Origin: Halopseudomonas phragmitis
GTDB lineage: Bacteria; Pseudomonadota; Gammaproteobacteria; Pseudomonadales; Pseudomonadaceae
NCBI RefSeq assembly: GCF_002056295.1
Contig: NZ_CP020100.1
Location: 3,743,501 to 3,807,500 of the forward strand
Length of the DNA stretch: 64,000 nt
Direction: 5' to 3'
Both the position numbers and the translations under genes were made by a program. The notes beneath the pieces are model-generated. The model was not told where the DNA came from. It saw only the letters and a program-made list of their open reading frames with translations, and searched no databases. Positions 47,814 to 63,750 of the stretch are shown piece after piece (the first letter of the stretch is position 1; each line of letters starts with the position of its first letter).

Positions 47814-49148
47814 TTAACGTTTTTTTGCCAGCAATTCGGAACGCCCAATTATCGCGTTGGTACGCTCCGGTTTACGCGGTCCTGAGAAGCCTGCATCTGC
47901 GATGGCAGTATCCAGGCCACGAAACTGGGGTGCGGCTTTGGCGCTGCGTAATGTCTCCATTCCCTCATTCCAGGCATGCACCATGTGCTTGGCCACATCG
48001 CGCCAGGCCGGTTCGTTCTTGGCGGCTTCAATGACTTCTTTGCCTACCTCTACCGCTGACTGACAGAGCTGATCGACCATAGCAGCGTACTGAGCCGGGG
48101 GAATGCTCAAGACAGCTTTGAAGAATGTTTCCAGCGAACGGCCCGGCGTCCAGGTTTGCCGGCCGGCAATGGAGAGCCCAGGGGGACTGGCTGCGAAGCG
48201 TGGATAGGCCTGCGTGGTCACCAGGTCATAGACCGGGGTAAAGCCCACGTCGGCCAGGGAGGTGTAATACAGTGCGATGTTTTTTGCGTGACAATCTGCA
48301 TTGCGCACCACGTAATTGGTCAGCAGTTGCCAGCCCAGGTGCTCGCGCTGTTCACGCAGGTGATCTGCGCTTATGTAGGGCCGGGTGGCGTTCCACACCT
48401 GCTCAATGGAGGGACGGTATTTCTCGTGTGGCGGCAGGCCCAACAGCCCACACGCGTCTTCCATACCAAACCGGGGAACGCCCTGCTCATCAACATCAAA
48501 GCGGTCCACGACCAGTACTCTGCCATCCTCCGACATACTGCACCTGGCAACGGGGACGACATTCAGCCGTGCCAGAACGCGCATGGTGTAGAACTCGTTG
48601 AAGCCTAGAAATGGGGTGCTGTCATCAGAGCCTTTGATGATATGAAACCCCGTCCTTAACGTCGGTTTGCCATGCAGTGGCTGGTTGTGTACTGCATCTT
48701 TGGCAATGAACTTTGGTACGACTCCCGAGACAGCTACCCGCGCATACTGGCGCACAAGTCTGGCGAAGTGTTCCGTGGTGTTTTCCGCTTGGAGCAGTTG
48801 GCTGATTTCAAGCGGGTCCATGTCGATGCCGGGGCGAACGCCCTCAGGCGTAACCGCCACCCTGCCAATACCGGTGGCGCCGACCAGCCCCAGAAGCGAT
48901 AAGTCGGTGCCATCAAGCAGCGCTCCGAACTCTTCACGAATAACCCCCAGCAAATAGCCCTCGGGCAGGTTCTGCCGGAAAAATGGAAACAAATCACGAG
49001 GCCAGCGCCATGGCTCTTCGCGAACTGGCATTGTCAGGCTGACGAAGTCTGCCAACTCGGTGCCCGGAAGATATTTCAGGACGTACTCATCACGCTCCCG
49101 GTAGAGCTTGGCCACATGTTTTGCATTGACGTGTACGTCGAGAATCAT
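47814..49148 (-). CDS. hipA: HipA-family serine/threonine kinase toxin
   Basis: HipA-type kinase of 444 aa. An N-terminal HipA-N subdomain (with NLPEGYLLGVIREEFG) leads to a kinase with the nucleotide loop SGVVPKF (141-147), the catalytic loop NADCHAKN (283-290, Asp285 and Lys289) and the metal Asp308 in VYDLVTT. E. coli HipA phosphorylates glutamyl-tRNA synthetase and arrests growth; other HipA branches use other targets. It is 2 bases downstream of the HipB-type antitoxin. All key kinase residues seem intact, so it is probably active. Confidence 0.92.
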   Translation of the reverse strand: MILDVHVNAKHVAKLYRERDEYVLKYLPGTELADFVSLTMPVREEPWRWPRDLFPFFRQNLPEGYLLGVIREEFGALLDGTDLSLLGLVGATGIGRVAVTPEGVRPGIDMDPLEISQLLQAENTTEHFARLVRQYARVAVSGVVPKFIAKDAVHNQPLHGKPTLRTGFHIIKGSDDSTPFLGFNEFYTMRVLARLNVVPVARCSMSEDGRVLVVDRFDVDEQGVPRFGMEDACGLLGLPPHEKYRPSIEQVWNATRPYISADHLREQREHLGWQLLTNYVVRNADCHAKNIALYYTSLADVGFTPVYDLVTTQAYPRFAASPPGLSIAGRQTWTPGRSLETFFKAVLSIPPAQYAAMVDQLCQSAVEVGKEVIEAAKNEPAWRDVAKHMVHAWNEGMETLRSAKAAPQFRGLDTAIADAGFSGPRKPERTNAIIGRSELLAKKR

Positions 49149-49150
49149 GG

Positions 49151-49411
49151 TTACCCTCTCTCGGAACGCTGTTCGGCAAGGATATCCTCAACGGTACGCG
49201 TATGGCCGGCCTTGACCAGCTTCAAGTCATACCCTGCGGCCTCCAGCAGGCGAACCAGCGCCGAAACGCTCATATCCCCCTTGGCCAAGGTTTCCATGCG
49301 GGCCACAGTGGAGCGTGATACACCGGCACGCTTGGCAATGGCTTCCTGGCTCAGGTTCGCGTCACGGCGTGCTTGCTTGAGCATTTCGGCAACGTCGTAC
49401 AGTGAGGACAT
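49151..49411 (-). CDS. hipB: HipB-type antitoxin, XRE-family regulator
   Basis: DNA-binding antitoxin of 86 aa with an XRE/Cro helix-turn-helix (about 10-65; LSQEAIAKRAGVSRSTVARMET). ATG 49411 has CAGGAG 6 bases upstream. It should neutralise HipA and repress its own operon by binding the palindromes upstream. The C-terminal tail after residue 66 is the usual toxin-contact or degradation tail. Confidence 0.92.
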   Translation of the reverse strand: MSSLYDVAEMLKQARRDANLSQEAIAKRAGVSRSTVARMETLAKGDMSVSALVRLLEAAGYDLKLVKAGHTRTVEDILAEQRSERG

Positions 49412-49412
49412 T

Positions 49413-49557
49413 TGTAGCTCCTGAGCATCAGAAATAGACAATTCACCGAAAAATGTAGCCTGCAAGCTACATTTATACAAGTTCTGCCTATAAAACATTG
49501 TAGCCCTTAAGCTACATATCTGCCCGACCTGGTACATTTTGTAGCTTACAAGCCACA
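49413..49557. promoter_or_regulatory. Four HipB operator-like palindromes
   Basis: Four sites of the form TGTAGC-N6-GCTACA: 49413-49430 (diverged right arm, overlapping the hipB ribosome binding site), 49454-49471 (perfect), 49499-49516 (perfect) and 49540-49557 (one mismatch). Centres are 41, 45 and 41 bases apart, about four helical turns, so four HipB dimers could bind the same DNA face. The region is AT-rich, with a TATAAA box between the second and third sites as a possible -10 for hipBA. This differs from the E. coli HipB sequence. Confidence 0.85.
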
Positions 49558-49668
49558 AATACCAGCTGTGATATGCGTATCTGGTGTCGCTATGACAGAG
49601 GTCCATTTTTTTGGGGGGGAATGGAATGGATGGAGCGGTCAGACTTGGCGCTGGCGCTGGCTTCCCCA

Positions 49669-49706: not shown

Positions 49707-50075
49707 TTAGTGGCTGATCATCCAGGGCCGGGCGGAGGGGAACATCTTTTCGCCGTTGGCGGTCCAGAACAGTTTTGATTTACCGAGTTTCTGATGCGCG
49801 CAGCCGCAGCCCTTGCCGTGCTTGTGCTCGTGCCGGGCCTGTTCTTCGGCGCGGTACTCGGGCGTGGACAGGATCGGGCTGTGCATGGCCTTTTCGTTGC
49901 GGTCCTTGGCCTTGCGTTCACTGTCGTCGACCTTGAACAGGTGGCTCGGTAGCAGGATCACCTTGGCTGACATCACGCCGCACTGCGGGCAGGGCTGCGG
50001 TTTGTCGAACTCGTCCATGGTGGCCAGGGCATGGAAAATTCCATGCTCCTGGCACTTGTAGTCATACAAAGGCAT
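49707..50075 (-). CDS. fmdB: FmdB-family zinc ribbon protein
   Basis: Protein of 122 aa beginning MPLYDYKCQEHG, the FmdB zinc-ribbon start, with likely metal ligands Cys8, His11, Cys29 and Cys32. A His/Cys-rich stretch (HEHKHGKGCGCAH) lies towards the C-terminus. FmdB was first named next to formamidase in Methylophilus and is thought to be regulatory. It follows fmdA by 6 bases, so it is the last gene of that unit. Confidence 0.85.
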   Translation of the reverse strand: MPLYDYKCQEHGIFHALATMDEFDKPQPCPQCGVMSAKVILLPSHLFKVDDSERKAKDRNEKAMHSPILSTPEYRAEEQARHEHKHGKGCGCAHQKLGKSKLFWTANGEKMFPSARPWMISH

Positions 50076-50081: not shown

Positions 50082-51314
50082 TTACTCCTTGTCTTTCGAC
50101 AGCGGTACGTCCATGCCGCCGGACACTTTGGTTTGCGGGCCGCTGGCGCTGGGGTTGATGTCGAAGTCGAAGATGCCGGTCGGCAGCCACAGGGTGGCGC
50201 AGGCGTTGGGTACGTCGACCACGCCGCTGATATGCCCTTCCACCGGGGCGCAGCCCAGCAGTGCGTAGGCCTGGGCGCGGCTGTAGCCAAACTTGGTCAG
50301 GTATTCGATGGCATTGAGGCAGGCCTGGCGGTAGGCGATATGCACGTCCAGGTAGTGCTGCTTGCCCTGCTCGTCGACCGAGATGCCTTCGAAGATGACG
50401 TAGTCGTCGTAGCGCGGCTTGATCGGGCTGGGTTTGAAGATCGGGTTCTTGATGCCGTACTTGGCTACGCCGTCCTTGATCAGGTTGACCCGCAGGTGAA
50501 TCCAGCCAGCCATTTCAATGGCGCCGCAGAAGGTGATTTCGCCGTCACCCTGGCTGAAGTGCAGATCGCCCACCGACAACCCGCCGCCCTTGACGTAGAC
50601 CGGGAAGTAGACCTTGGAGCCGCGCGACAGGTCCTTGATGTCGCAGTTGCCGCCATGCTCACGCGGCGGTACGGTGCGCGCGCCTTCGGCAGCGGCCTTG
50701 GCTTTGGCCTCGCCGCTCAGGCGGCCCATGTGCGCGGTTTCGGCATAAGGCAAGTTGGCCAGGCCGGGGACGCGTTCGGGGTCGGTTTCAAACAGTTCGG
50801 TTTCGCGCTTGTTCCACTCTTCGAGCATTTCCTTGGACGGCAGACAGCCGATCAGGCCGGGGTGGATCAGGCCGGCGAATTCGACATTCGGAATGTGCCG
50901 GGACTTGGTGAACATGCCGTTGAAGTCCCAGATGGATTTTTGCGCTTCGGGGAAGTGCTCGGTCAGGAAGCCGCCACCGTTCTGCTTGGAGAAGAAGCCG
51001 TTGAAGCCCCACTGACTTTCGTCGAAGGTGCCGATGTCGAGGATGTCGACTTCCAGCAGGTCACCCGGTTCGCAGCCTTCCACGCCAATCGGGCCGGACA
51101 GGAAGTGCACCTGGCTCAGGTCAACGTCACGCACGTCGTCGGCGCTGTCGTTGTTGGCGATCTGGCCGCCGGTCCAGTCGTAGCATTCAAGGATGAAGTC
51201 GTCGCCAGGCTTGACCGTGGCGACCATGGGAATGTCCGGGTGCCAGCGGTTGTGGACCATGTCGTTTTCGTAGGGCGACTTTTTCAGATCGATCTTGATG
51301 ATGGTGTCAGCCAT
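50082..51314 (-). CDS. fmdA: Formamidase
   Basis: Acetamidase/formamidase family enzyme of 410 aa that hydrolyses formamide to formate and ammonia. The FmdA pattern is clear: HNRWHPDIPMVATVKPGDDF, ECYDWTGGQIANNDSADDV, and CGAIEMAGWIHLRVNLIKDG. The start has CAGGAG upstream. It has its own promoter region carrying the palindrome shared with urtA, and is separated from the upstream ATPase gene by repeats, so it can be expressed on its own as well as with the amide cluster. Confidence 0.94.
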   Translation of the reverse strand: MADTIIKIDLKKSPYENDMVHNRWHPDIPMVATVKPGDDFILECYDWTGGQIANNDSADDVRDVDLSQVHFLSGPIGVEGCEPGDLLEVDILDIGTFDESQWGFNGFFSKQNGGGFLTEHFPEAQKSIWDFNGMFTKSRHIPNVEFAGLIHPGLIGCLPSKEMLEEWNKRETELFETDPERVPGLANLPYAETAHMGRLSGEAKAKAAAEGARTVPPREHGGNCDIKDLSRGSKVYFPVYVKGGGLSVGDLHFSQGDGEITFCGAIEMAGWIHLRVNLIKDGVAKYGIKNPIFKPSPIKPRYDDYVIFEGISVDEQGKQHYLDVHIAYRQACLNAIEYLTKFGYSRAQAYALLGCAPVEGHISGVVDVPNACATLWLPTGIFDFDINPSASGPQTKVSGGMDVPLSKDKE

Positions 51315-51386
51315 TGTCAGCTCCTGAGGGCAGATGGGGGTCGAAATGAACTACCGGGTCACTATCGCCAAGCGCTGGCCTGGCGA

Positions 51387-51428
51387 CCATTCGTGAAATG
51401 ACACCCCTGTCTACGTCATTTGACGTAG
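51387..51428 (-). promoter_or_regulatory. fmdA upstream regulatory site (7-2-7 palindrome)
   Basis: CTACGTCATTTGACGTAG (51411-51428) is a perfect palindrome with the 7-2-7 layout TACGTCA-TT-TGACGTA known for NarL/LuxR-family regulators. On the fmdA strand it is followed 11 bases later by ATTT-N2-CGAATGG (CCATTCG at 51387-51393 on the plus strand). The same two elements occur at identical spacing before urtA. It starts about 97 bases before the fmdA start codon. Confidence 0.75.
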
Positions 51429-51469
51429 ATGGTATGGGGAGGCTGATTCAGGGGTGGGGATGCCTTTGT

Positions 51470-51678
51470 GGATTGCCACGGCGCTGACGCGCCTCGCAAT
51501 GACGGGGTGGGGGGCGGTGGATTGCCGCGGCACTGCGTGCCTCGCAATGACGAGGTGGGGGGGCCGCGGCGGCGGATGACTGCCCCCTGCGCCTCGCAAT
51601 GACGCGGTGAGGGGGACGTTGCGCCGGGGCTGGCCCCTTCTCCGTCATCGCGAAGGCCGTAGGCCTGTGGCGATCCAG
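51470..51678. repeat. Cluster of dispersed palindromic repeats
   Basis: Copies at 51470-51503, 51519-51551 and about 51574-51603 (partial) in one orientation, and 51644-51678 in the other. Unit: GGATTGCC-GCGG-N(10-12)-CCTCGCAATGAC, itself able to fold. They fill the gap between the AmiB-like gene and the fmdA control region. Confidence 0.85.
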
Positions 51679-51680
51679 GG

Positions 51681-52718
51681 TTAGTCGGTGGGGAAGACTT
51701 TTAACTGTCCGTTCTGGTAGTCGGCGATGAACAGGCTGGCACTGGGGGTTTGCAACAGGGCGTGGGCGAGTCTTGGGGTGAGTATTTGGCGTACCTGGCG
51801 CGCCAGGTCGCGGGCGCCGTAGCGGCGGTCATAGCCCTGGCACAGGAAGTGGCGGGCGTTGGCGGTGAGGCGCAGTTCGGCCTGCTGTCTAGCCAGGCGG
51901 CGGGTCAGGCGTTGCAGTTCAATATCCAGCAATGGTTCGCTGAGGTCATCGTTCAGACGCTGGTACTGGACGATATGGTCGATGCGGTTGATGAACTCAG
52001 GGTCGAAGCGCTGACTCAGGGCCTGGTCAAGTATCTGCCGCTCCTGGGCGGTGCTTGGGCCAAGCCAGCGCCACCAGCCGGAGCGAAAGCGGCCGTGGTA
52101 GCGCGCCAGTTCAGCGGCACCGAGGTTGCTGGTGAGAAAGATCAGGCTGTTGCGAAAATCCAACGTGCGGTTGCCGGCCGGCAGGGTCAGTTGGCCGGCG
52201 TCGAGGACGTTGAGCAGGGTACGGATGACCTCGCTGCTGGCCTTTTCCAGTTCGTCGAGCAGGACAATGCCGGGCTTGCTGTAGCTGCCACGGATTTTGT
52301 CGGCATCGAACAGGGTGTGGCCTTCCTTGCTGCCGACGTAGCCGGGCGGCGCGCCCGTCAGTGCCGAGGCGTAGTGTTCCTGGCTGAGGGTATTCATGTC
52401 GATGCGGCACATGGCGTCCGGGCTGCCGTGCAGCGCCTCGGCCAGTACCCGCACGGTTTCGGTCTTGCCGACGCCGGTCGGGCCCATCAGCAGGCAGACG
52501 CCAAGCGGTCGCTGTTCCGGGGCCAGGTCGGCGCGGATGACCTGCAACAGGTCGCTGAGGGTGGCGAGGGCGGCGTCCTGGCCGATGATGCGCTGGTGCA
52601 GGAGTTGGCTGACCTGCTGCGGGTCGAAGGTAAAGCGGGTCTGGCGTAGGCCGGTTTTGCTCGGGCGCTGGGCCAGCAGGTCGCGGTTGGCGGCAAGGCG
52701 TTCGTTGGCGAAGGGCAT
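51681..52718 (-). CDS. AmiB-like AAA+ ATPase of the amidase operon
   Basis: Single-domain Clp-type AAA+ protein of 345 aa. Walker A GPTGVGKT (79-86), pore-like GAPPGYVGSKEG, Walker B VLLDELEKA, sensor LTSN and a C-terminal small domain with YDRRYGARDLARQV. It resembles the ClpB/ClpX core without the N-terminal domain and lacks an obvious ClpP-binding loop. In P. aeruginosa the second gene of the amidase operon, amiB, encodes a similar ATPase thought to act as a chaperone. It follows amiE here too. ATG 52718 is preferred over longer frames that run through the repeats. Confidence 0.85.
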   Translation of the reverse strand: MPFANERLAANRDLLAQRPSKTGLRQTRFTFDPQQVSQLLHQRIIGQDAALATLSDLLQVIRADLAPEQRPLGVCLLMGPTGVGKTETVRVLAEALHGSPDAMCRIDMNTLSQEHYASALTGAPPGYVGSKEGHTLFDADKIRGSYSKPGIVLLDELEKASSEVIRTLLNVLDAGQLTLPAGNRTLDFRNSLIFLTSNLGAAELARYHGRFRSGWWRWLGPSTAQERQILDQALSQRFDPEFINRIDHIVQYQRLNDDLSEPLLDIELQRLTRRLARQQAELRLTANARHFLCQGYDRRYGARDLARQVRQILTPRLAHALLQTPSASLFIADYQNGQLKVFPTD

Positions 52719-52762
52719 GGACCTGTCCTTGTCTGTGGTAGTGAATAGATTGCCGTGTCGGT

Positions 52763-52869
52763 GGATTGCCACGGCACTGCGTGCCTCGCAATGACGGGGG
52801 TGGGGGTGTTACACCGGTACTTGACTCCCCCCTCCCCGTCATCGCGAGGCCGTAGGCCGTGGCGATCCA
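52763..52869. repeat. Inverted pair of dispersed repeats between amiE and ATPase gene
   Basis: Copies at 52763-52795 and 52838-52869 in opposite orientation. In the transcript they could form a long hairpin, which may lower or protect message between the two genes. Confidence 0.8.
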
Positions 52870-52879
52870 TGCCGGCAAC

Positions 52880-53926
52880 TCAGCCCCAGGCACCCCTCTC
52901 CTTGCCGGCCACTGGCAGTTCACCTACCGGGCAGTCGGCCACGCCTATGGTGCTGCGGGTCATGGCTTCGACCTGGTCGCGGGCTTTTTCTGCGTCCATG
53001 ACCCAGGTGCGGTAGAAGTCGAACGGGCAGTCAGCCACGCCGCGGTCCCCATCGCCGGAGTTAAACACGCCGGTGTAGCCACGGTGCAGCAACTTGAACA
53101 GGTGGTTCTGCGACTGGTCGTTGGCGCGCGCGTCGCGGATCTGGCTGACCGACAGCTGGGCGTACTGCACGCCCATATCTTCCTCGCCGCATTCGCCCAG
53201 GGTGCGGCCGTCGAAGCCGATGATCGCTGAGTGGCCGAAGTAGGAATACACGCCGTCAAAACCGGTGGCGTTGGCCACGGCGACGTAACAGTTGTTGGCC
53301 CAGGCCATGCTCTTGGCCATCATGATCTGCTGTTCCTTGGCCGGGTACATGTAGCCCTGACAACGGACGATCAGTTCGGCACCCTTCATCGCGCAGTCGC
53401 GCCAGATTTCCGGGTAGTTGCCGTCGTCGCAGATGATCAGGCTGATTTTCAGGCCCTTGGGGCCTTCGCTGACGTAGGTAGTATCGCCGGGGTACCAGCC
53501 TTCGATCGGGCACCAGGGGATGCACTTGCGGTACTTCTGGACGATCTCGCCGTCGCTGTTGATCAGCACCAGGGTGTTGTACGGCGCCTTGTGCGGGTGC
53601 TGTTCGTGGCGTTCGCCGGTGAGCGAAAACACGCCCCAGGTGTTGGCGTCGCGGCAGGCCTGGCTGAAGATCGCGGTTTCATCACCGGGGATGCTGGCGG
53701 CGGTGGCCATCATCTCGTCGTTGTCATACATAATCCCCATGGTGCTGTATTCGGGGAAGATCACCAGGTCCATGCCGGGCAGGCCCTGCTTCATGCCGCG
53801 AATCATGTCGGCAATCTTGTGCGCATTCTCAAGCACCTGCCCGCGAGTGTGCAGGCGCGGCATCTTGTAGTTCACCACGGCAACGCCGACGGTGTCCTTG
53901 CTGCTGGAAATGTCACCATGACGCAT
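52880..53926 (-). CDS. amiE: Aliphatic amidase
   Basis: Nitrilase-superfamily amidase of 348 aa that hydrolyses short aliphatic amides (acetamide, propionamide) to acid and ammonia. The Glu-Lys-Cys triad is Glu59 (VIFPEYS), Lys near 134 (YRKCIPWCP) and Cys near 166 (ICDDGNYPE). The N-terminus [27 protein letters not shown] is very like P. aeruginosa AmiE. AAGGAG lies before the start. It is 27 bases after urtE, in line with the transporter operon. Confidence 0.95.
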
Positions 53927-53953
53927 GGCGGACTCCTTATCGCTGATTGATGG

Positions 53954-54643
53954 TCAGACGGCCAGGTAGGAAGCGATCTTGGCTTCGTCGACGCTGGCTC
54001 TGAGTTCTTCATGGACGATCTCGCCCTTTTCGATCACCAGAATGCGGTCGGCAATATCGAGGGCGAACTTGAGCACCTGTTCGGAGACGATGATCGACAG
54101 GCCACGCTGATCGCGGATGGTTTTCAGGGTGCGGGCCATGTCGCTGATGATCGACGGCTGGATGCCTTCAGTCGGCTCGTCGAGCAGCAGTAGTTTGGGG
54201 TCGCTGGCCAGGGCGCGGGCAATTGCCAGTTGCTGCTGCTGACCACCGGAGAGGTTGCCGCCGCGCCGTGAGCGCATTTCCAACAGCACCGGGAACAGCT
54301 CGTAGAGATCGTCCGGCACGCTGCGCCGACCGGTCACGGTCAGACCTGTTTCGATGTTTTCCTTGACTGTCATGGTCGAGAAGATCATCCGCCCCTGGGG
54401 TACATAGGCCAGCCCGGCCTTGACTCGCTGGTGGCTTTTCAGGCCGGCGACTTCGCGCTCATCCAGGGTCACGCTGCCGCCCTGGCTCGGGATCACACCC
54501 ATCAACGACTTCATCAGCGTGGTCTTGCCCATGCCGTTGCGGCCCATGATGGCGACGATTTCATTCTTGCCGACGCTGAAATTGAGATTGCGCAGGATCT
54601 GGCTCTGCCCGTAGGCCACGCTGTAATCGGATACGTTCAACAT
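53954..54643 (-). CDS. urtE: ABC transporter ATP-binding protein UrtE
   Basis: Second ATPase of a branched-chain-amino-acid/urea type ABC importer, LivF/UrtE family, 229 aa. Walker A GRNGMGKTT, signature LSGGQQQQLAIARAL and Walker B LLLLDEPTEGIQPS. ATG 54643 has AGAGGG 6 bases upstream; a longer TTG start is rejected. It begins 12 bases after urtD. Confidence 0.92.
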   Translation of the reverse strand: MLNVSDYSVAYGQSQILRNLNFSVGKNEIVAIMGRNGMGKTTLMKSLMGVIPSQGGSVTLDEREVAGLKSHQRVKAGLAYVPQGRMIFSTMTVKENIETGLTVTGRRSVPDDLYELFPVLLEMRSRRGGNLSGGQQQQLAIARALASDPKLLLLDEPTEGIQPSIISDMARTLKTIRDQRGLSIIVSEQVLKFALDIADRILVIEKGEIVHEELRASVDEAKIASYLAV

Positions 54644-54654
54644 GTTCTGCCCTC

Positions 54655-55407
54655 TCAATGGCCCAGATAGACTTCGATGACCTTGGGGTCGGCCTTGACC
54701 TTCTCCGGCGAACCCTCGGCCAGAATGCGGCCCTGGTGCAGCACTGTGACCTTGTCGGCGATTTCCGCCACGAACTGCATGTCGTGCTCGATCACGATCA
54801 TGGTGTGTTCCTTGGCGATCTCACGCAGCAGCACGGCGGTCTGCCGGCGTTCGTTGACCGACATGCCGGCCACTGGCTCATCGAGCATCAGCAGTTCGGG
54901 TTTCTGGATCAGCAGCATGCCAATCTCCAGCCACTGTTTCTGGCCATGACTGAGCAGGTCGGCCTGGGTGTGCAGATGCTCGGAGAGGAAAATCCGCCCG
55001 GCGATTTCCTCGATGCGCGCTACCACCTCGGCGCTGCGCTTGAAGGCCAGGCTGCCGAACACCCCACGCCCGCTGGGGTAGGAGATTTCCAGGTTCTCGA
55101 ACACGGTCAGGTCCGGGTAGATCGAGGGGTTCTGAAACTTGCGCCCGACCCCGGCCTTGACGATCTGGTGCTCCTTGAGCCGGGTCAGTTCACGGTTGCG
55201 AAAGCGGATCGAACCGTCAGTGGCCTTGGTACGGCCACAGATCAGATCCAGCACTGTGGTCTTGCCGGCGCCATTGGGGCCGATGATCACGCGGATCTCG
55301 TTCTGGTCGACATAGAAGCTCAGGTCGTTGACTGCCTTAAAGCCGTCGAACGAGACCGTGAGCCCCTCCACGGCGAGGATGAAATCGGTATTGGATCCCT
55401 GGCTCAT
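54655..55407 (-). CDS. urtD: ABC transporter ATP-binding protein UrtD
   Basis: LivG/UrtD-type ATPase of 250 aa. Walker A GPNGAGKTT, signature LSHGQKQWLEIGMLL, typical of UrtD because the motif has SHGQ rather than SGGQ, and Walker B MLDEPVAGMS. Its start overlaps the urtC stop by 4 bases. Confidence 0.93.
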   Translation of the reverse strand: MSQGSNTDFILAVEGLTVSFDGFKAVNDLSFYVDQNEIRVIIGPNGAGKTTVLDLICGRTKATDGSIRFRNRELTRLKEHQIVKAGVGRKFQNPSIYPDLTVFENLEISYPSGRGVFGSLAFKRSAEVVARIEEIAGRIFLSEHLHTQADLLSHGQKQWLEIGMLLIQKPELLMLDEPVAGMSVNERRQTAVLLREIAKEHTMIVIEHDMQFVAEIADKVTVLHQGRILAEGSPEKVKADPKVIEVYLGH

Positions 55408-56561
55408 GAGCTGGCTCCCTGGCTGCTGGGTTGAAGGACGTCAATGCGCGGCTCGCCCGGCTTGCCGAACAGGCGATCAAGCAGCCGGTCGACATGCGGC
55501 GCCACCCAGTTGGCGTACAGGCCGGCAATGCCATTGGGCAGCGCCAGCACTACGCCGATGAAGATCAGGCCCATGGCGAACAGCCACAGATCCGGGAAGC
55601 TCTCGCCGAACAGGGTCTTGGCCACGCTGACCAGCAGCACGCCGTAGACCGCGCCGATGATCGACAACCGGCCACCGACGGCGCAGAAGATCACCATCTC
55701 AATCGATGGCACTACCCCGACGAAGCTCGGCGACATGAAGCCTTCCTGCAGGGTGAACATGGCCCCGCCGATGCCAGCAAAGGCGGCGCCGACGCAGAAC
55801 ACGAAGACCTTGAAGTTGGCGATGTCGTAACCGGAAAAGCGCACCCGGTCCTCCTGCCCGCGCATTGCCACCAGAATCCGTCCGGTCTTGCTGCGGCGGA
55901 TGTACTGGGCGACCAGCAGGCAGACGAACAGCAGCGCCACGCAGACGAAGTAGAGAATGTAGCTGGCCTCGTCGGTGTGGATGTTCCAACCCTTGAGCGT
56001 GCGCAGATCGGTGATGCCATTGACCCCGCCAGTCAGACCCTGCTGGCCGATGATCAGGATGGTCAGAATCGCGGCGATCGACTGGGTGATGATGGCGAAG
56101 TACACCCCACCGACCCGGCGCTTGAACATCGCTACGCCGATCAGGTAGGCGACGATGCTCGGCACCACGACCACCGCGATGATGGCGAAGGTCAGGCTGT
56201 AGAAGGGTTCCCAGAACCACGGCAGTTCGGTGATGCGGTTCCAGTCCATGAAATCCGGGATACCCGGAGTGGTCTGGATCGCGGTGTTTTCCGGGGTCGA
56301 GGCCTCGAGCTTGAGGTACATGGCCAGGGCGTAGCCGCCCAGACCGTAGAACACCCCCTGCCCCAGGCTAAGGATGCCGCCGTAGCCCCAGCACAGCACC
56401 AGGCCAACGGCGACGAAGGCAAAGCTGAGGAACTTGCCGACCTGATTCAGACGCATCACGTCCAGCGCCAGCGGCAGCGCCACCAGCAGCACCAGCGCCA
56501 GCACCAGAAACGACAGCAGATCCTGGCGCGGCATGAACTCCTTGAAGGATGAGAATGGCAT
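55404..56561 (-). CDS. urtC: ABC transporter permease UrtC
   Basis: Inner-membrane permease of 385 aa with about ten helices, LivM/UrtC family. CWGYGGILSLGQGVFYGLGGYALAMYL is the family core motif. GGAG precedes the ATG. Partner of UrtB in a heterodimeric channel. The long helix-rich N-terminus matches UrtC length. Confidence 0.93.
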   Translation of the reverse strand: MPFSSFKEFMPRQDLLSFLVLALVLLVALPLALDVMRLNQVGKFLSFAFVAVGLVLCWGYGGILSLGQGVFYGLGGYALAMYLKLEASTPENTAIQTTPGIPDFMDWNRITELPWFWEPFYSLTFAIIAVVVVPSIVAYLIGVAMFKRRVGGVYFAIITQSIAAILTILIIGQQGLTGGVNGITDLRTLKGWNIHTDEASYILYFVCVALLFVCLLVAQYIRRSKTGRILVAMRGQEDRVRFSGYDIANFKVFVFCVGAAFAGIGGAMFTLQEGFMSPSFVGVVPSIEMVIFCAVGGRLSIIGAVYGVLLVSVAKTLFGESFPDLWLFAMGLIFIGVVLALPNGIAGLYANWVAPHVDRLLDRLFGKPGEPRIDVLQPSSQGASS

Positions 56562-56573
56562 GACGGGCTCCTC

Positions 56574-57500
56574 CTAGCGGCGCACTTTGAGACTGAACAA
56601 CCCCTGGGGGCGGAACATCAGGATGATCACCACCACCAGCAGGGTCAGAACCTTGGCCATCGAACCGCCCATGAAGAACTCCATGATCGATTGTGACTGC
56701 GAGATGCTGAATGCCGAGGCGACCGTGCCAAACAGGCTGCCGGCGCCGCCGAACACCACCACCAGGAAGGTGTCGACGATGTACAGCTGGCCAGAGCTGG
56801 GGCCAGTGGAACCGATCATGGTGAAGGCACTGCCGGCGACCCCGGCAATGCCGCAACCCAGGGCGAAGGTCAGGCGGTCCACCCGGGCCGTGTTGATGCC
56901 CACAGCGCCCGCCATGTCGCGGTTCTGCACCACGGCGCGCACCTGCTTGCCCCAGCGCGAGCGGTACATCAGCACCGCCACGGTGACTGTGGCCAGCACC
57001 GCCAGGGCCATGACGAACAGGCCGTTGATCGGCACCTCGATCATGTCGGTGAGCTGGTAGGAACCCATCAGCCAGTCGGGAATCACCACCCCGACCTCAC
57101 GGGCGCCGAAGATCGAGCGGTAGGCCTGCTGCAGAATCAGGCTCAGGCCCCAGGTGGCCAGCAGAGTGTCCAGCGGGCGATGGTAGAGAAAGCGGATCAG
57201 TCCCCATTCGACGATCACCCCGAGCAGCGCCGCAGCGAAAAAGGCGAGGACGATGGCGAACAGGAAGTAGGAGCCGAACAGCTCGGGAAAGTGGTTGGCG
57301 AACAGGTTCGAGGTCATGTAGGTGACATAGGCACCGAGGATCATGAACTCACCATGCGCCATATTGATGACCCCCATCTGGCCGAAAATGATGGCCAGGC
57401 CCAGGGCCATAAGAACGAACACCGCGAACAGGATCAGACCGGCAAAACCCTGCATGGCAAAGATCGCGGTCAGCTCGGCGGCAGAGAAGTCAGAGAACAT
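56574..57500 (-). CDS. urtB: ABC transporter permease UrtB
   Basis: Inner-membrane permease of 308 aa with about eight helices, LivH/UrtB family. GQMGVINMAHGEFMILGAYVTYM is the family hallmark. It lacks the long periplasmic N-terminal extension of some UrtB proteins. GGAGGAAGG lies before the ATG. A hairpin separates it from urtA. Confidence 0.93.
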   Translation of the reverse strand: MFSDFSAAELTAIFAMQGFAGLILFAVFVLMALGLAIIFGQMGVINMAHGEFMILGAYVTYMTSNLFANHFPELFGSYFLFAIVLAFFAAALLGVIVEWGLIRFLYHRPLDTLLATWGLSLILQQAYRSIFGAREVGVVIPDWLMGSYQLTDMIEVPINGLFVMALAVLATVTVAVLMYRSRWGKQVRAVVQNRDMAGAVGINTARVDRLTFALGCGIAGVAGSAFTMIGSTGPSSGQLYIVDTFLVVVFGGAGSLFGTVASAFSISQSQSIMEFFMGGSMAKVLTLLVVVIILMFRPQGLFSLKVRR

Positions 57501-57544
57501 GGTCCTTCCTCCGGCAGATGGACAGGCAAACCAGGCAAAACGGT

Positions 57545-57568
57545 CCCGCCGGCCGACTGGCCGGCGGG
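57545..57568 (-). terminator. Hairpin between urtA and urtB
   Basis: Perfect 10-bp stem CCCGCCGGCC/GGCCGGCGGG with a 4-base loop, 10 bases after the urtA stop. On the transcript strand a TTTT follows four bases later, so it may act as a leaky terminator or as a 3' stabiliser, giving more binding protein than permease. Confidence 0.6.
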
Positions 57569-57578
57569 GTATACAGGC

Positions 57579-58841
57579 TTACTGGTAACCGGCCGGGAAC
57601 GGATCGGGTTCCATCAGCTCTTCGGTCTCGTAGACCACCTTGAACTGGCCGTCACGCTGGGCGTGGCCGATGCGGGTCTTGGACCACAGGTGGTGGTTTT
57701 CGTGGATGCGTACATAACCTTCCGGTGCGGTGGTCAGCTCGATGCCCGGCGAGGCTTCGCGCACGCGGTCAACATCGAACGAGCCGGCCTTCTCCACGGC
57801 GGCCTTCCACAGCCAGGGGCCGAGATAGGCGGCCTGGGTGACGTCGCCGATCACCGCATCAGCACCCCAGCGGGCCTTGAAGGCTTCGACGAAAGCCTGG
57901 TTGTTTTCATTCGGCAGGCTCTGGAAGTACTTCATCGAGGCATAGGCACCCTCGATGTTGTCACCGCCGATACCGAGAATTTCATCCTCGGTGACCGAGA
58001 TGGTCAGCAGGGTGAAGTCTTCCTTGGTCATGTCCAGACCCGCGGCCTTGAGCTGGCGGTAGAAGGCCACGTTGGAGCCACCAACCACTGAGGCGAAGAT
58101 CACGTCCGGCTTGCGCAGGCGGATGCGGTTGATCACCGAGTTGAAGCTGGTGTGGCCGAGCGGGAAGTAGTCCTCACCGACCACCTGGCCACCCAGGTGC
58201 TGCTCGATGTGGGTACGGGCGATCTTGTTCGAGGTGCGTGGCCAGATGTAGTCCGAGCCGATCAGGTAGAAGGTCTTGGCACCCTTGTCTTCAGACACCC
58301 AGTCAAGCCCGGCGAGAATCTGCTGAGTGGCTTCCTGGCCGGTGTAGATCACGTTGGGCGACTGCTCCAGCCCCTCGTAGAAGGTCGGGTAATAGAGCAT
58401 GCCGTTGTTGCGCTCAAAGATCGGCAGTACCGCCTTGCGCGAGGCCGAAGTCCAGCAGCCAAACACCGCTGCCACCTTGTCCTGGCGCAGCAGCTTGTTG
58501 GCGCGGTCGGCGAAGGTCGGCCAGTCACTGGCGCCGTCTTCCTGAACGTATTCGATCTGCCGTCCGAGTACCCCGCCCATGGCGTTGATCTGCTCGATGG
58601 CGAGAATCTCGGCCTGCACCGAGCCCTCTTCACTGATCGCCATGGTGCCGGTGATCGAATGCAGGATGCCGACCTTGACGGTGTTGTCGGTCACCGCCAG
58701 GCCAGTGGTGTTGACCTCAGCGGTGCTCGGGTTGGCCGTGGCGGTCAGGCTGATGCCGGACAGCAGCACGGCGGCGGACATGGCCGCGATCGAACGCGCC
58801 AGAAAACTGCGGCGGGACAGCTTGGGTTTGGAGTGCTCCAT
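57579..58841 (-). CDS. urtA: Substrate-binding protein UrtA (urea/short-amide ABC transporter)
   Basis: Periplasmic binding protein of 420 aa, UrtA family, related to AmiC of the amidase system. N-terminus has a twin-arginine-like signal (SRRSFLA then a hydrophobic stretch to about residue 36). The mature start VKVGILHSITGTMAISE and the YYPTFYEGLEQSPNVIYTG segment are typical of UrtA. GAGGAA precedes the ATG. First gene of the transporter-amidase operon. With no urease nearby and two amidases downstream, amides may be the main ligand. Confidence 0.93.
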   Translation of the reverse strand: MEHSKPKLSRRSFLARSIAAMSAAVLLSGISLTATANPSTAEVNTTGLAVTDNTVKVGILHSITGTMAISEEGSVQAEILAIEQINAMGGVLGRQIEYVQEDGASDWPTFADRANKLLRQDKVAAVFGCWTSASRKAVLPIFERNNGMLYYPTFYEGLEQSPNVIYTGQEATQQILAGLDWVSEDKGAKTFYLIGSDYIWPRTSNKIARTHIEQHLGGQVVGEDYFPLGHTSFNSVINRIRLRKPDVIFASVVGGSNVAFYRQLKAAGLDMTKEDFTLLTISVTEDEILGIGGDNIEGAYASMKYFQSLPNENNQAFVEAFKARWGADAVIGDVTQAAYLGPWLWKAAVEKAGSFDVDRVREASPGIELTTAPEGYVRIHENHHLWSKTRIGHAQRDGQFKVVYETEELMEPDPFPAGYQ

Positions 58842-58948
58842 GGTGATTCCTCGTGTCGGTGAAACTGGGAAAAAACGGCACCACCGGGGCAGATCCGGTG
58901 ATGCCTTAAGCGCACGACTCGCATTCTGCTAAGCACCCATCAAGCTGC

Positions 58949-58990
58949 CCATTCGACAAATACCCCAGCCGCCTACGTCATTTGACGCAT
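58949..58990 (-). promoter_or_regulatory. urtA upstream regulatory site (7-2-7 palindrome)
   Basis: CTACGTCATTTGACGCAT (58973-58990) repeats the fmdA palindrome with two changes at one end, and CCATTCG (58949-58955) lies at the same 18-base offset as at fmdA. On the urtA strand both promoters then show GCTTRGC about 14 bases further on. It begins about 132 bases before the urtA start. Confidence 0.75.
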
Positions 58991-59069
58991 GGCCGGCAGG
59001 TTCGCTGCGGTATAGAAATTAGCGCGGTTATATGTATTCGGAACGGCCTGCCCGACGCGAACCACGCAT

Positions 59070-59281
59070 GGATTGCCACGGGCCTGCGGCCCTCGCAATG
59101 ACGGTGAGTGAAGGCGATGACGGGAGGGGGACTAGCCTTGTCATTGCGGGGACGCTAGCCCCGTCAGTGCAAAGACGCCACAGCGCGTCATTGCGAGGAG
59201 CAGAGCGACGCGGCAATCCAAACGCCCTGCCCAACGCGAACCCGGCATGGATTGCCACGGGCCTGCGGCCCTCGCAATGAC
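59070..59281. repeat. Cluster of dispersed palindromic repeats
   Basis: Copies at 59070-59102 and 59249-59281 in one orientation, 59187-59220 in the other, with two partial units at about 59140 and 59163. The two same-strand copies lie in longer matching segments of about 65 bases, suggesting a recent duplication. They fill most of the gap between urtA and the sensor-kinase gene. The rest (59282-59471) shows only a ribosome binding site and no clear promoter. Confidence 0.85.
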
Positions 59282-59471
59282 GGGAGGGGGGCTGACCGGA
59301 AAGGAGCAGATGAAAGGCTCGCTTAAATAGACAAGCTGGCATGTATATTGAGAGAGAGCCTGCCAGGGGGCGGCCAGTGCAGCGTTACAGCGAACTGGCC
59401 ATCCGGATATCGCACCATGCCGGTGCAGATCGAGCCGCCAGTGTCACCAAAACTGGCACCGAGGGGAGTCC

Positions 59472-62400
59472 ATGACTGCCAGGCAACACATCTTCCGCGT
59501 GCGCCGCAACTACAACCAGTGGGTCGCCAACGAAACGCTGGAGGACTACGCCCTGCGCTTCACCGCCAAAAGCGCCCGACGCTGGCCGGCGTCACGGGTG
59601 GCCGGTACTGCGCTGGGGGCTATCTCGTTTCTGGCCCTGGAAGCGATTGGCGGCGCCATTACCCTGCATTACGGCTTTACCAATGCGGTGGCGGCAATTC
59701 TGGCGGTCAGTCTGGTGATTCTGCTGACCGCCATCCCGATCAGCTATTACGCTGCCCGCTACGGGGTCGACAGCGATCTGCTGACCCGCGGTGCCGGCTT
59801 TGGTTACATCGGTTCGACCATCACCTCGCTGATCTACGCCAGCTTCACCTTTATCTTCTTTGCCTTGGAAGCAGTGATCATGGCCATGGCGCTGGAGCTG
59901 CTGTTTGGCGTGCCGCTGGCGCTGGGCTACATCATTTGCGCACTGGTGATCATTCCGCTGGTGACCCATGGCATCACCCTGATCAGCCGCTTCCAGCTAT
60001 GGAGCCAGCCTTTCTGGATCATCCTGCAACTGGTGCCGTTCGTCTTCATCATCTATGCCGACGCCAGCGCGGTGCAGGACTGGACCCAGTTCGCCGGCCG
60101 TGAGCCGGGCAGCGATCCGGCCAGCGGGCTGAACCTGCTGATGTTCGGCGCCGCCGCTGCGGTGATGTTCTCGCTAATCGCCCAGATTGGCGAGCAGGTC
60201 GATTTTCTGCGCTTTGTACCCAAGGCCGAGCCCGGTAAAAGTCTGCGCTGGTGGGCGGCGGTGATGGCCGGCGGGCCGGGCTGGATCATCATCGGCGCGC
60301 TGAAAATTCTGGCTGGCTCGTTCCTGGCCGTGCTGGCGCTAAACCACGGGGTGCCCTACGAGGAAGCCGCCGATCCGACCCGCATGTACATGATCGCCTT
60401 CGGCTACCTGACCAACTCGCCACAGGTGGCGCTGGCTGCAGCCGGTATCTTCGTGATCCTGTGCCAGGTCAAGATCAACGTCACCAACGCCTATGCCGGC
60501 TCGATTGCCTGGTCGAACTTCTTTTCCCGGCTGACCCACAGCCACCCCGGCCGGGTGGTCTGGCTGGTGTTCAACGTCAGTATCGCGCTGCTGGTGATGG
60601 AGCTGGGGGTATACCGGGCGCTGGAAGAAACCCTGGGCTACTACGGCATCATCGCCACCGCCTGGGCCGGCGCACTGGTCGCCGATCTGGTGATCAACAA
60701 GCCGCTCCGGCTGTCGCCCAAGCATATCGAGTTCAAGCGTGCGCATCTGTACGACATCAATCCGGTGGGGGTCGGCGCCATGCTGCTGGCCACCCTGGTC
60801 GGATTCCTAAGCTTTGCCGGGCTACTCGGTGAAGTGGCGCAGGCTCTGGCGCACTTCATTGCCCTGGGCACTGCCCTACTCTGCGCCCCGCTGATCGCCT
60901 GGCTGACCGGCGGACGTTATTACCTGGCGCGCGAGGTGATCCGCCTGCAACCCGAGGCTGACGAACGACTGGCCTGCTGCGTGTGCGAAAACCGTTTCGA
61001 GCCCGAAGACATCACCCATTGCCCGGCCTATGGCGGACAGATCTGCTCGCTGTGCTGCTCGCTGGATGCCCGCTGCGGCGACTACTGCAAACCCGGCGCC
61101 GGCTATGCCGAACAGATGCGCGGTTTTCTCCGGCTGCTGCTACCCGAGCGGCTGATGCCACGGGTCGGCTCACGGATCGGTCATTTTCTTGGCCTGCTGG
61201 CGCTGATCAATGGCGTTACCGGTCTGCTGCTGGCACTGATTTACTACCAGACACCGTTCAGCGACAGCGCCACCCAGGCCCTACTGGCCAGCACCCTGTG
61301 GAAGGTGTTTTTCATTCTGCTGATCATCACCGGGGTGATCAGTTGGCTGTTTGTACTGGCCAACGACAGCCGCCGGGTCGCCCAGGAGGAATCCAACCGG
61401 CAGAACCGCCTGCTGCTGGAAGAGATCGAAGCCCACGAGCTGACCGACCGCGCACTGCAGCAGGCCAAGGAGCAGGCCGAAGCCGCCAACCAGGCCAAGA
61501 GTCGTTACCTGACCGGCATCAGCCATGAGCTGCGCTCACCGCTCAATGCAGTACTCGGTTACGCCCAACTGCTGGAACAGGACCCGCAGATTCCAGAAAT
61601 TCGCCGCCCGGCGCTGGGGGTGATTCGCCGCAGCGGCGAGTACCTGGCCGATCTGATCGAAGGGCTGCTGGATATTTCCAAAATCGAGGCCGGACGCCTG
61701 GAGCTGCACCTGAGCGAAGTGCGCATCGACCTGCTGCTCGATCAACTGGTCCACATGTTCCGCCTGCAGGCCGAGGCCAAGGGCCTGGCGTTCGAGTTCC
61801 ACTGCCAGGATCGCCTGCCGTGCTGGGTACGTACCGACGAAAAGCGCCTACGTCAGATTCTGATCAACCTGCTGTCCAACGCCATCAAATACACCGAATC
61901 CGGGCATGTGCGCCTGACCCTGCGCTACCGCAGCGAGGTCGCCGAGTTCAAGGTCGAAGACAGTGGCGAGGGTATTCGCCGCGAGGATCTCGAACGCATC
62001 TTCCAGCCCTTCGAACGGGTGCGCAATCCCGGCTCGACCGCCTTCGGCACCGGGCTGGGACTGACCATTACCAAGCTGCTGTGCGAAATCATGGGTGGCG
62101 ACATCAGCGTGCAGAGCCACCCGGGCCAGGGCAGCACTTTCAAAGTCGCACTGCTGCTGGCCAGCGCCCGGCGCGACAGGCCAGACGATCCGCCCCCGGC
62201 ACTGCGGCCACCGCACGGCTATGCCGGCCCGATCCGGCGCATTGTGGTGATCGACGACGAAGACTCACACCGCCAGTTGATGACCAACCTGCTCACGCCT
62301 TTGGGCTTTGAGGTACAGACCCTGGCCAACCCCTTGCTGGCCGTGGAACTGCTGCGCCAGCAACCAGCCGACCTGCTGCTGCTCGATCTGAACATGCCCG

Positions 62401-62846
62401 GCCAGGACGGCTGGAGCCTGCTGGCCGAACTGCGCGCCAGCGGCTGTACCACACCGGTTATCGTGCTGTCCGCCGATGCCGCCGACGGCGGCCAGTCTCA
62501 GCTACCGGCACTGCATCAGGGCTACTTTATCAAGCCGGTGCAACTGGCCCAGTTGCTCGAACAGATCGGCCTGCTGCTGCAATTGCAATGGCGCCATGAA
62601 CCGGCGATGCCGGCAGCTCACACACAACCTGCGCCAGCCCCGGCCACACCCCTGCCCGGCCTGCCGACCTTGCAGGCACTGGCGTCCATCGGCCATCGCA
62701 AGGGCCTGCTTGAAGCGCTGTACCAGTTGCGCGAGCAAGACAGCACACGCCATGACTACTACAACCAACTGATCGGCCTGGCTGAGGCCTTCCAATTCGA
62801 AGCCCTGCAGCAACGGCTTCAGGTAACCGACAATGAATGCTCTTGA
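59472..62846 (+). CDS. NCS1-type permease fused to hybrid histidine kinase
   Basis: Protein of 1124 aa. Residues about 25-485 form a 12-helix NCS1 (cytosine/purine/allantoin-type) permease-like domain. Then comes a Cys-rich segment (502-539, nine Cys, including CCVC and CSLCC) likely to bind metal or an Fe-S centre, two more helices (about 568-590 and 610-631), a coiled coil, HisKA with His685 (SHELRSP), HATPase_c with GTGLGL, and a receiver with phospho-Asp972 and Lys1021. The last 80 residues are helical and may be a degenerate phosphotransfer domain. GGGGAG precedes the ATG. Its end overlaps the LuxR-type regulator gene by 14 bases. A transporter-like sensor next to amide genes suggests it senses amide or related compounds, as CbrA uses an SLC5 domain. 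Confidence 0.88.
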   Translation: MTARQHIFRVRRNYNQWVANETLEDYALRFTAKSARRWPASRVAGTALGAISFLALEAIGGAITLHYGFTNAVAAILAVSLVILLTAIPISYYAARYGVDSDLLTRGAGFGYIGSTITSLIYASFTFIFFALEAVIMAMALELLFGVPLALGYIICALVIIPLVTHGITLISRFQLWSQPFWIILQLVPFVFIIYADASAVQDWTQFAGREPGSDPASGLNLLMFGAAAAVMFSLIAQIGEQVDFLRFVPKAEPGKSLRWWAAVMAGGPGWIIIGALKILAGSFLAVLALNHGVPYEEAADPTRMYMIAFGYLTNSPQVALAAAGIFVILCQVKINVTNAYAGSIAWSNFFSRLTHSHPGRVVWLVFNVSIALLVMELGVYRALEETLGYYGIIATAWAGALVADLVINKPLRLSPKHIEFKRAHLYDINPVGVGAMLLATLVGFLSFAGLLGEVAQALAHFIALGTALLCAPLIAWLTGGRYYLAREVIRLQPEADERLACCVCENRFEPEDITHCPAYGGQICSLCCSLDARCGDYCKPGAGYAEQMRGFLRLLLPERLMPRVGSRIGHFLGLLALINGVTGLLLALIYYQTPFSDSATQALLASTLWKVFFILLIITGVISWLFVLANDSRRVAQEESNRQNRLLLEEIEAHELTDRALQQAKEQAEAANQAKSRYLTGISHELRSPLNAVLGYAQLLEQDPQIPEIRRPALGVIRRSGEYLADLIEGLLDISKIEAGRLELHLSEVRIDLLLDQLVHMFRLQAEAKGLAFEFHCQDRLPCWVRTDEKRLRQILINLLSNAIKYTESGHVRLTLRYRSEVAEFKVEDSGEGIRREDLERIFQPFERVRNPGSTAFGTGLGLTITKLLCEIMGGDISVQSHPGQGSTFKVALLLASARRDRPDDPPPALRPPHGYAGPIRRIVVIDDEDSHRQLMTNLLTPLGFEVQTLANPLLAVELLRQQPADLLLLDLNMPGQDGWSLLAELRASGCTTPVIVLSADAADGGQSQLPALHQGYFIKPVQLAQLLEQIGLLLQLQWRHEPAMPAAHTQPAPAPATPLPGLPTLQALASIGHRKGLLEALYQLREQDSTRHDYYNQLIGLAEAFQFEALQQRLQVTDNECS

Positions 62847-63750
62847 ACGCCCACGCGACACCATCCTTATCGTCGACGACGCTCTGGACAGCATCCGCAT
62901 GCTCAACGATGTGCTGGAAAATGCCGGCATGACCGTGCTGGTCGCCCTAGAAGGTGCCCAGGCTCTGAACATCACCCGCAACATCACCCCTGACCTGATC
63001 TTGCTCGATGCGCTGATGCCGAACATGGACGGCTTCGAAACCTGCCGCCAGCTCAAGACCAACCCGGCGCTGACCGATGTACCAATTATTTTCATGACCG
63101 GCCTGAGCGACACCGAACATGTGGTCATGGGCCTGAACAGCGGCGGCGTGGACTACGTCAACAAACCGATCAAGGCCGACGAACTGCTGGCCCGCATGCA
63201 GGTCCATCTGGCCAACGCCCGCATGGCCCAAAGCGCCCGCATGGCACTGGATCACACCGGCCATTACCTGTTCGCAGTGGATGCCAAAGGTGAACAACTC
63301 TGGGCCACCCCGCAGGTCAGCCAGCGCCTGCACCAGTGCGGCTATGCGCATACCGACAACCTGCAGCTACTGGCCGGCGAACTCGCTACCTGGCTCAGCC
63401 ACAGTCCCCAGCCCGGCCACCACCTGACCCCCGCGCGAGCCAGCAAAGACGGCCCGGTAATCGAATTTCTCGCCAGCGTATCAGCCCAGGAACACCTGCT
63501 GCGGCTGGTCGACAACCCGCGCAGCGATGATGCCTGCGAGCGCCTGCGCGACCACTTCGGCCTGACCGGGCGCGAAGCCGACGTGATGCTGTGGATCGCC
63601 AACGGCAAGACCAACCGCGAAATCGGCCAGATCCTCGACATGAGCCCACGCACGGTGAACAAGCACCTGGAACAGGTGTTCCGCAAACTGGGGGTGGAAA
63701 ATCGCACGGCCGCGGCTGCGGCAGCGATTCGGTGTTTGGCGCGGTTTTGA
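62833..63750 (+). CDS. LuxR/NarL-type response regulator
   Basis: Regulator of 305 aa: receiver (about 8-125) with Asp15/Asp16, phospho-Asp59 (LILLDALMPNMDG) and Lys111; a middle linker domain of about 115 residues; and a C-terminal LuxR/GerE helix-turn-helix (about 242-300; LTGREADVMLWIANGKTNRE). The long middle part is unusual for NarL-type proteins. It is encoded directly after, and overlaps, the permease-kinase fusion. The likely targets are the 7-2-7 sites before urtA and fmdA. Confidence 0.9.
   Translation: MNALERPRDTILIVDDALDSIRMLNDVLENAGMTVLVALEGAQALNITRNITPDLILLDALMPNMDGFETCRQLKTNPALTDVPIIFMTGLSDTEHVVMGLNSGGVDYVNKPIKADELLARMQVHLANARMAQSARMALDHTGHYLFAVDAKGEQLWATPQVSQRLHQCGYAHTDNLQLLAGELATWLSHSPQPGHHLTPARASKDGPVIEFLASVSAQEHLLRLVDNPRSDDACERLRDHFGLTGREADVMLWIANGKTNREIGQILDMSPRTVNKHLEQVFRKLGVENRTAAAAAAIRCLARF

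Follow-up and report, generated by a model that had tools for sequence, protein, structure and literature searches.

A probable two-copy operator shared by urtA and fmdA and a probable two-component switch for urea and amide genes in Halopseudomonas phragmitis

The urtA and fmdA promoters share a palindrome

We analysed a stretch of 64,000 nucleotides from Halopseudomonas phragmitis (contig NZ_CP020100.1, positions 3,743,501 to 3,807,500; hereafter the window), in which genes for a Urt transporter, an aliphatic amidase and a formamidase adjoin divergently encoded genes for a hybrid sensor kinase and a LuxR-type response regulator. A sequence-only reading had proposed that the urtA and fmdA promoters share a compound control site, made of a palindrome and the block ATTT-N2-CGAATGG, and that these genes form one regulon of the neighbouring regulator. 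The control elements and genes concerned are as follows, with positions counted from the first base of the window.

51412-51427, minus strand: distal operator (site 1) of fmdA, perfect 7-2-7 palindrome TACGTCA-AA-TGACGTA (TACGTCATTTGACGTA/TACGTCAAATGACGTA)
51390-51405, minus strand: candidate proximal operator (site 2) of fmdA, GGTGTCA-TT-TCACGAA, a degenerate copy with 9 of 14 matches, its centre 22 base pairs (bp) from site 1
51361-51366, minus strand: predicted -10 of fmdA, GATAGT, position conserved (62-67 from the palindrome start)
58974-58989, minus strand: distal operator (site 1) of urtA, TGCGTCA-AA-TGACGTA (TACGTCATTTGACGCA/TGCGTCAAATGACGTA), one change
58952-58967, minus strand: candidate proximal operator (site 2) of urtA, TGGGGTA-TT-TGTCGAA, likewise degenerate, with 8 of 14 matches
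58923-58928, minus strand: predicted -10 of urtA, CAGAAT, spacing conserved
59013-59018, plus strand: TAGAAA (part of TATAGAAAT), predicted -10 of the kinase-regulator operon, at position 40 counted from the start of the palindrome
50082-51314, minus strand: fmdA, formamidase (NCBIfam NF045496, 793.7 bits)
52880-53926, minus strand: amiE, aliphatic amidase (NF009802, 713 bits)
53954-54658, minus strand: urtE, ATP-binding protein
54655-55407, minus strand: urtD, ATP-binding protein
55404-56561, minus strand: urtC, permease
56574-57500, minus strand: urtB, permease
57579-58841, minus strand: urtA, substrate-binding protein (TIGR03407, 546 bits)
59472-62846, plus strand: sensor with a predicted NCS1-fold transmembrane domain, a Cys-rich segment and a HisKA-HATPase-receiver hybrid kinase
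62833-63750, plus strand: response regulator with a receiver domain and a LuxR/GerE helix-turn-helix

The open reading frames (ORFs) urtB to urtE are named by gene order, which is kept in relatives. Both promoters carry the proposed palindrome, exact at fmdA and with a change in one arm at urtA. On the minus strand of fmdA, TACGTCAAATGACGTA (51412-51427) is followed by a 12-base gap (51400-51411) and by ATTTCACGAATGG (51387-51399); at urtA, TGCGTCAAATGACGTA (58974-58989) is followed by a 12-base gap (58962-58973) and by ATTTGTCGAATGG (58949-58961). Order and register are identical at the two promoters, as had been claimed, but the gap is 12 bases and not 11. Allowing up to three mismatches, the palindrome occurs three times in the window versus 0.84 times expected from shuffles, and three or more matches were found in 4 of 100 shuffles. 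Exact matches to the second block, ATTTNNCGAATGG, are confined in the window to 51387-51399 and 58949-58961 of the minus strand; when as many as two mismatches are allowed, there are 11 matches versus 11.8 expected, so that this short block alone carries no meaning.

A genome-wide scan (4,035,153 bases) found TACGTCANNTGACGNA with at most one mismatch at urtA and fmdA and at no third place. At up to two mismatches there were 15 forward and 13 reverse matches, and the reversed control pattern gave more (27 and 42). Each of the 19 places with two mismatches lacks both a good second copy (at least 7 matches; the best reaches 6 of 14) and a correctly spaced -10, so we rejected further regulon members elsewhere in the genome. 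Eighteen of these 19 places lie inside stop-free frames longer than 400 bases, a weak sign of coding in this G+C-rich genome. Among 38 genomes (relatives and the organism's own), the combined motif without mismatch is present only in G000, G018, G014 and G003, each time in two copies separated by 7.2-7.7 kb; the remaining matches were one with three mismatches (G024) and two of the control.

The second block resembles a weaker operator copy

We slid the operator consensus along a set of promoters from which sites with more than three mismatches, fewer than 40 bases from the start or with fewer than 102 bases had been left out; 60 of the resulting 68 were kept, eight near-duplicates being dropped. 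In all three promoter classes the best non-zero offset was +22, where the mean number of matches out of 14 was 6.7 for urtA (n=33), 6.9 for fmdA (n=18) and 7.0 for another UrtA class (n=9), compared with 3.4-3.5 at other offsets. When the downstream letters were shuffled 2000 times, this score was not reached once in any class; the shuffles ignored relatedness. Promoter by promoter, +22 was the best offset in ~17 of 33 urtA, 12 of 18 fmdA and 6 of 9 other-urtA promoters (ties shared). ATTT-N2-CGAATGG coincides with the right part of site 2 plus its flank.

It is conceivable that the regulator binds the palindrome while ATTT-N2-CGAATGG is the site of another protein, for instance a nitrogen-status activator, or an extended -35 element. 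Such a separate role is suggested by the dyad that the block forms on its own in L067, L068, L072 and L077 (ATTCG-N-CGAAT) and by its consensus, which runs past the 7-2-7 frame into ATGG and reaches the -35 region; it accords less well with the operator-like letters T1, G4, A7, C13, G14 and A16 that recur in frame at a fixed +22, with the near-perfect operator copies at this place in L134 (TACGTCA-TG-CTGCGTA) and L135 (TACGTCA-TC-CTGCGTA), and with the distance from the block's centre to the -10, 31.5 bp, which is the same as for a single operator in Rhizobiales. We regard it as unlikely. The block reads best as part of a weaker second operator copy: of the compound site first proposed, the two blocks in fixed order stand, and the second of them would be a copy of the first, 22 bp on, rather than a separate element.

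Promoter spacing and a probable third promoter

Counted from the start of the palindrome, a NANANT hexamer begins at position 62 in 26 of 33 urtA, 14 of 18 fmdA and 5 of 9 other-urtA promoters, that is, 31.5 bp past the centre of site 2. In 22 non-redundant promoters of urea-type UrtA, mostly from Rhizobiales, NATA[GC]T is found at position 40 in 15, again 31.5 bp past the operator centre. On the side of the urtA palindrome that faces the kinase, 23 of 31 non-redundant rows with at most one mismatch have TA at position 40, and 11 have TANNNT; in the window this TA lies in TATAGAAAT at 59011-59019. One distance thus fits most of these promoters, whether measured from site 2, from the single Rhizobiales operator or on the kinase side. 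Since the kinase side mostly has the conserved spacing, the urtA palindrome probably serves the divergent kinase-regulator operon too and, read from the opposite side, would be its proximal operator. To the two entry points that had been named, urtA and fmdA, which both stand, a probable third promoter is therefore added that uses the urtA palindrome.

With its centre 31.5 bp before the conserved -10, site 2 lies over the -35 region. If transcription starts 6-8 bases past the -10, site 2 would be centred at about -43 and site 1 at about -65. On these predicted starts it would be a class II layout.

The urtA palindrome is 498 bases ahead of the kinase start in the window and 107-408 bases ahead of it in other loci with a site of at most one mismatch within 500 bases. 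REP-like repeats (core CGTCATTGCGAGG, with GTGGCAATCCA) at 51468-51627 and 59042-59293 occupy the gap upstream of fmdA and the one that separates the urtA palindrome from the start of the kinase gene.

Operator and regulator are conserved together

The order was sampled with 293 genomes; 76 of them have the regulator (E up to 1e-60) and 79 the membrane part of the kinase. We compared 60 loci around the regulator. A close UrtA (at least 60% identity) is encoded in 32 of them, in every case divergently from the kinase, and amiE and/or fmdA mostly follow past urtE as far as the locus stretches extended; in L067-L069 and L074, amiE is placed between the kinase and urtA. The palindrome, at up to three mismatches, lies upstream of urtA in 30 of the 32 loci and is exact in 23; L083 and L091 have the promoter-side arm only. 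Over 38 urtA sites, further loci and the window being counted, the far arm reads TGCG in 30, TACG in seven and TGGG in one.

An exact palindrome also precedes a second UrtA class, 35-41% identical, in other families (L100, L113-L115, L117, L118, L121-L123 and L130). Among the best 80 of 579 relatives, the operator/regulator unit was found in Rhizobium, Bradyrhizobium, Shinella, Methylobacterium, Alcanivorax and others, and the looser pattern TACGNNANNTNNCGTA with at most one mismatch is present in 61 of their 66 urt promoters; shuffled upstream regions gave on average 0.2 of 66 and at most one. The exact palindrome TRCGTCAWNTGACGYA occurs in 57 of the 293 genomes: in 52 of the 80 with the regulator or the kinase versus 5 of the 213 with neither. 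Two genomes that had initially been scored as negative for the regulator (L177 and L178) proved to have it, below the cut-off and in two pieces. Because palindrome and sensor/regulator pair are conserved together in many bacteria, the pair very probably switches these genes on.

At L116 and L184 two identical palindromes, separated by 234 bases, lie close to an ORF that resembles an IS3-type transposase, and no urt genes were found in the vicinity; in G316 two copies are near an ORF that by eye resembles an IS3-type transposase.

Promoter exchange within the genus

FmdA was found in 24 of 37 genomes of the genus and falls into two types, eight proteins at 91-100% identity (the window included) and 16 at 76-78%. 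All eight fmdA genes of the window type have the perfect palindrome and none has a sigma54-like element (TGGCA[CT]..TGC[TA] at -24/-12). Of the 16 other-type genes none has the palindrome within 160 bases, and all have TGGCA[CT]..TGCT at the -24/-12 spacing. The regulator was found in seven of the eight window-type genomes, G327 being the exception, and in none of the 16 others. At three loci of the same genus (L181, L182 and L183), urtABCDE, amiE and fmdA have sigma54-like promoters, including the urtA promoter in all three, and an activator gene replaces the two-component pair: in each, an ORF between fmdA/fmdB and amiE encodes a protein with GAF, sigma54-activator and Fis-type helix-turn-helix domains. 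The palindrome is present in nine of the 37 genomes, in seven of them as two copies together with the regulator and in G327 and G012 as one copy; no palindrome is present in G015, whose regulator gene lies on a 5-kb contig. The pattern of this swap indicates that the palindrome goes with the regulator and not with the target genes. The proposal of one regulon under the neighbouring LuxR-type regulator thus gains comparative support, from co-occurrence across the order and across classes and from the absence of both operator and regulator where promoters are of the sigma54 type.

Regulator and sensor

The protein encoded at 62833-63750 has the domains expected of the NarL/LuxR-family regulator that had been placed there: a receiver domain (PF00072, 93.6 bits), in which D59, T89 and K111 are invariant in 33 sequences, and a C-terminal GerE/LuxR helix-turn-helix (PF00196, 65.9 bits, residues 244-296). 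Residues ~135-235 form a conserved stretch of ~100 residues with no Pfam family, resembling by eye a degenerate PAS domain. Across 96 regulator-operator pairs, N at helix residue 276 goes with T5/A12 in 64 of 71 and D with C5/G12 in 15 of 17; in the eight pairs with T the operator is mixed. We rejected this co-change as proof of binding: the tree gives a single origin of D276, so that it is only a hint of recognition.

The sensor combines HisKA, HATPase_c and a receiver domain in one chain and is thus a hybrid sensor histidine kinase. A model of its membrane domain has the fold of nucleobase-cation-symport-1 (NCS1) transporters, with CodB and Mhp1 as best matches (VIA-align), and an NCS1-like fold is therefore predicted for this domain. 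CodB and Mhp1 have the same general fold as SLC5 transporters. In Pfam, 30 sensor members gave no SSF (SLC5) match and, over their first 560 residues, no STAC or other significant match, no check being made that Pfam includes a STAC model; residues 561-670 were scanned against Pfam only within the whole protein. A sequence profile of the sensor domain gave no relevant match among solved structures.

The transporter-fold domain is separated from the kinase by a segment (residues 502-539, within the gene part 59472-61151) with short predicted strands and eight cysteines that are invariant in 30 aligned sequences. It is possibly a metal-binding linker.

Proposed mechanism and alternatives

On these comparisons we consider it highly likely that the locus encodes a dedicated two-component switch for the scavenging of urea and short-chain amides, acting through two-copy operators. 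The sensor would detect an amide or urea, or the flux of these, a ligand guessed from the target genes, and would activate the LuxR-type regulator by phosphotransfer. A regulator dimer would then bind the 7-2-7 inverted repeat TACGTCA-N2-TGACGTA, of which urtA and fmdA each present two copies, spaced by 22 bp on the same face of the DNA: the distal copy, at about -65, is the strong one, and the proximal copy, at about -43, is weak. Site 1, two helical turns upstream, probably helps to load site 2; the latter, which overlaps the -35 region, would contact RNA polymerase in class II activation. Autoregulation would come in addition through the urtA palindrome, which is placed at about -43 of the kinase-regulator promoter.

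Several observations weigh against this interpretation. The open-licence literature that we searched yielded no binding or expression data, and the co-change of recognition helix and operator rests on a single clade. In the window site 2 is weak, matching at 9 of the 14 bases for fmdA and at 8 of them for urtA; an offset of +29 competes with +22, being best in ~5 of 33 urtA promoters versus ~17; and the operator shuffle statistics take no account of relatedness. Of the 80 genomes that encode the regulator or the kinase, 28 have no exact palindrome; in the subset inspected, some of them have a degenerate or one-armed site. Palindromes without an evident link occur in G040, G103, G310 and G316. 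Finally, G227 (in the sample) and G327 (of the same genus) keep the palindrome before fmdA, and the membrane part of the kinase was not found in either, where the whole-kinase query matched the general kinase region only.

These last two genomes would fit a palindrome that is recognised by a DNA-binding protein other than the adjacent regulator, the linkage being mere neighbourhood; no systematic search was made for other regulators recurring near the palindrome. Such an explanation has to contend with the co-occurrence over 293 genomes and across classes, and with the 16 same-genus loci of the other promoter type, all of which lack the palindrome and had no such regulator found, and we judge it very unlikely.

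Improbable to a similar degree is a repressor operator, by which the regulator, perhaps unphosphorylated, would block the promoters until amide arrives. The placement of site 2 over the -35 region would also suit a repressor, while the weak -35 hexamers and a strong site at about -65 would suit activation, and in the related CrbS/CrbR system activation depends on the CrbR site at -52 to -36 (PMC5715377). A chance likeness of the two promoters, or an RNA hairpin or terminator, can be dismissed: the short second block has weak statistics at the level of the window, but the pairs are conserved in other species and other classes and stand out from shuffled controls, and the palindrome, being upstream of the predicted -10, would lie outside the transcripts of these promoters.

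Other features of the locus

49707-50075, minus strand: fmdB-like zinc-ribbon protein
51681-52772, minus strand: AAA+ ATPase akin to the second ATPase half of ClpB

The AAA+ ATPase ORF, which adjoins amiE in many relatives, we take to be of the kind named AmiB in the Pseudomonas amidase operon. A HipA-like ORF and a small helix-turn-helix ORF preceding it (47814-49148 and 49151-49606) have by eye the look of a HipBA toxin-antitoxin pair.

Discussion

The operator arrangement has a counterpart at Escherichia coli uhpT, where the LuxR-type regulator UhpA has two sites upstream of a sigma70 promoter, the distal one stronger than the proximal. That system differs in its signal, a sugar phosphate, in its sensor UhpB/UhpC and in the sequence bound. 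A UhpA site is mentioned in the accessible part of PMC5352689.

The closest known system is the CrbS/CrbR acetate switch, as described in the available part of PMC5715377. It likewise joins a transporter-like domain, fused to a hybrid kinase, with a LuxR-type regulator; its inverted repeat, the ACTU motif at -52 to -36, also lies just before an RpoD promoter, and its targets include a substrate transporter. The differences lie in the sensor, which in CrbS consists of SLC5 and STAC, as against the predicted NCS1 fold and the Cys-rich segment here; in the repeat, which has another sequence there (for example TACTACCATCGTCGAAT at acs) and in the present system is joined by a strong distal copy at about -65; and in the function, acetate as opposed to urea and amide genes (PMC5715377). 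RpuS/RpuR of Sinorhizobium fredii again pairs a transporter-like hybrid kinase with a LuxR-type regulator that acts on a transporter operon, but has an SLC5/STAC sensor, an imperfect direct repeat instead of a palindrome and pyruvate as its substrate (PMC9100948, available part). EupR of Chromohalobacter salexigens, a NarL/FixJ-family protein, controls uptake with a putative hybrid kinase bearing a symporter-like domain; that domain is of the SSF type and is accompanied by PAS domains, and the compound taken up is ectoine; an operator is not defined in the available part of that paper (PMC2964678). In Ectopseudomonas guguanensis G3, a second urtABCDE operon is annotated beside a LuxR-family two-component regulator, and locus tags place fmdA next to the cluster, both by annotation only; the available part of that paper describes neither an operator nor a regulon or mechanism (PMC13296017). 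Among the matches listed in our search of open-licence literature, no study of this urea/amide regulation was found.

We think it rather likely that these proteins represent a widespread, apparently undescribed class of sensors, in which an NCS1 fold serves as the receptor of a hybrid kinase for urea and amides. The class would govern two distantly related Urt transporters, together with amidases, by a portable operator grammar (a centre 31.5 bp before the -10 and an optional strong copy two turns upstream), and would alternate with a sigma54 activator within a genus.

Many bacteria use urea and short-chain amides as sources of nitrogen, and in the open-licence literature we found no specific regulator described for the bacteria considered here. 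If the proposal is true, a simple rule would predict urea- and amide-controlled promoters across Gamma- and Alphaproteobacteria. It would also provide a transporter-fold receptor outside the SLC5/STAC family, which bears on whether such proteins sense by binding or by transport. Lastly, the same genes in sister species would offer a natural pair of promoters, one under a two-component system and sigma70 and the other under an activator and sigma54, that may help in studying how one mode of regulation is swapped for another.

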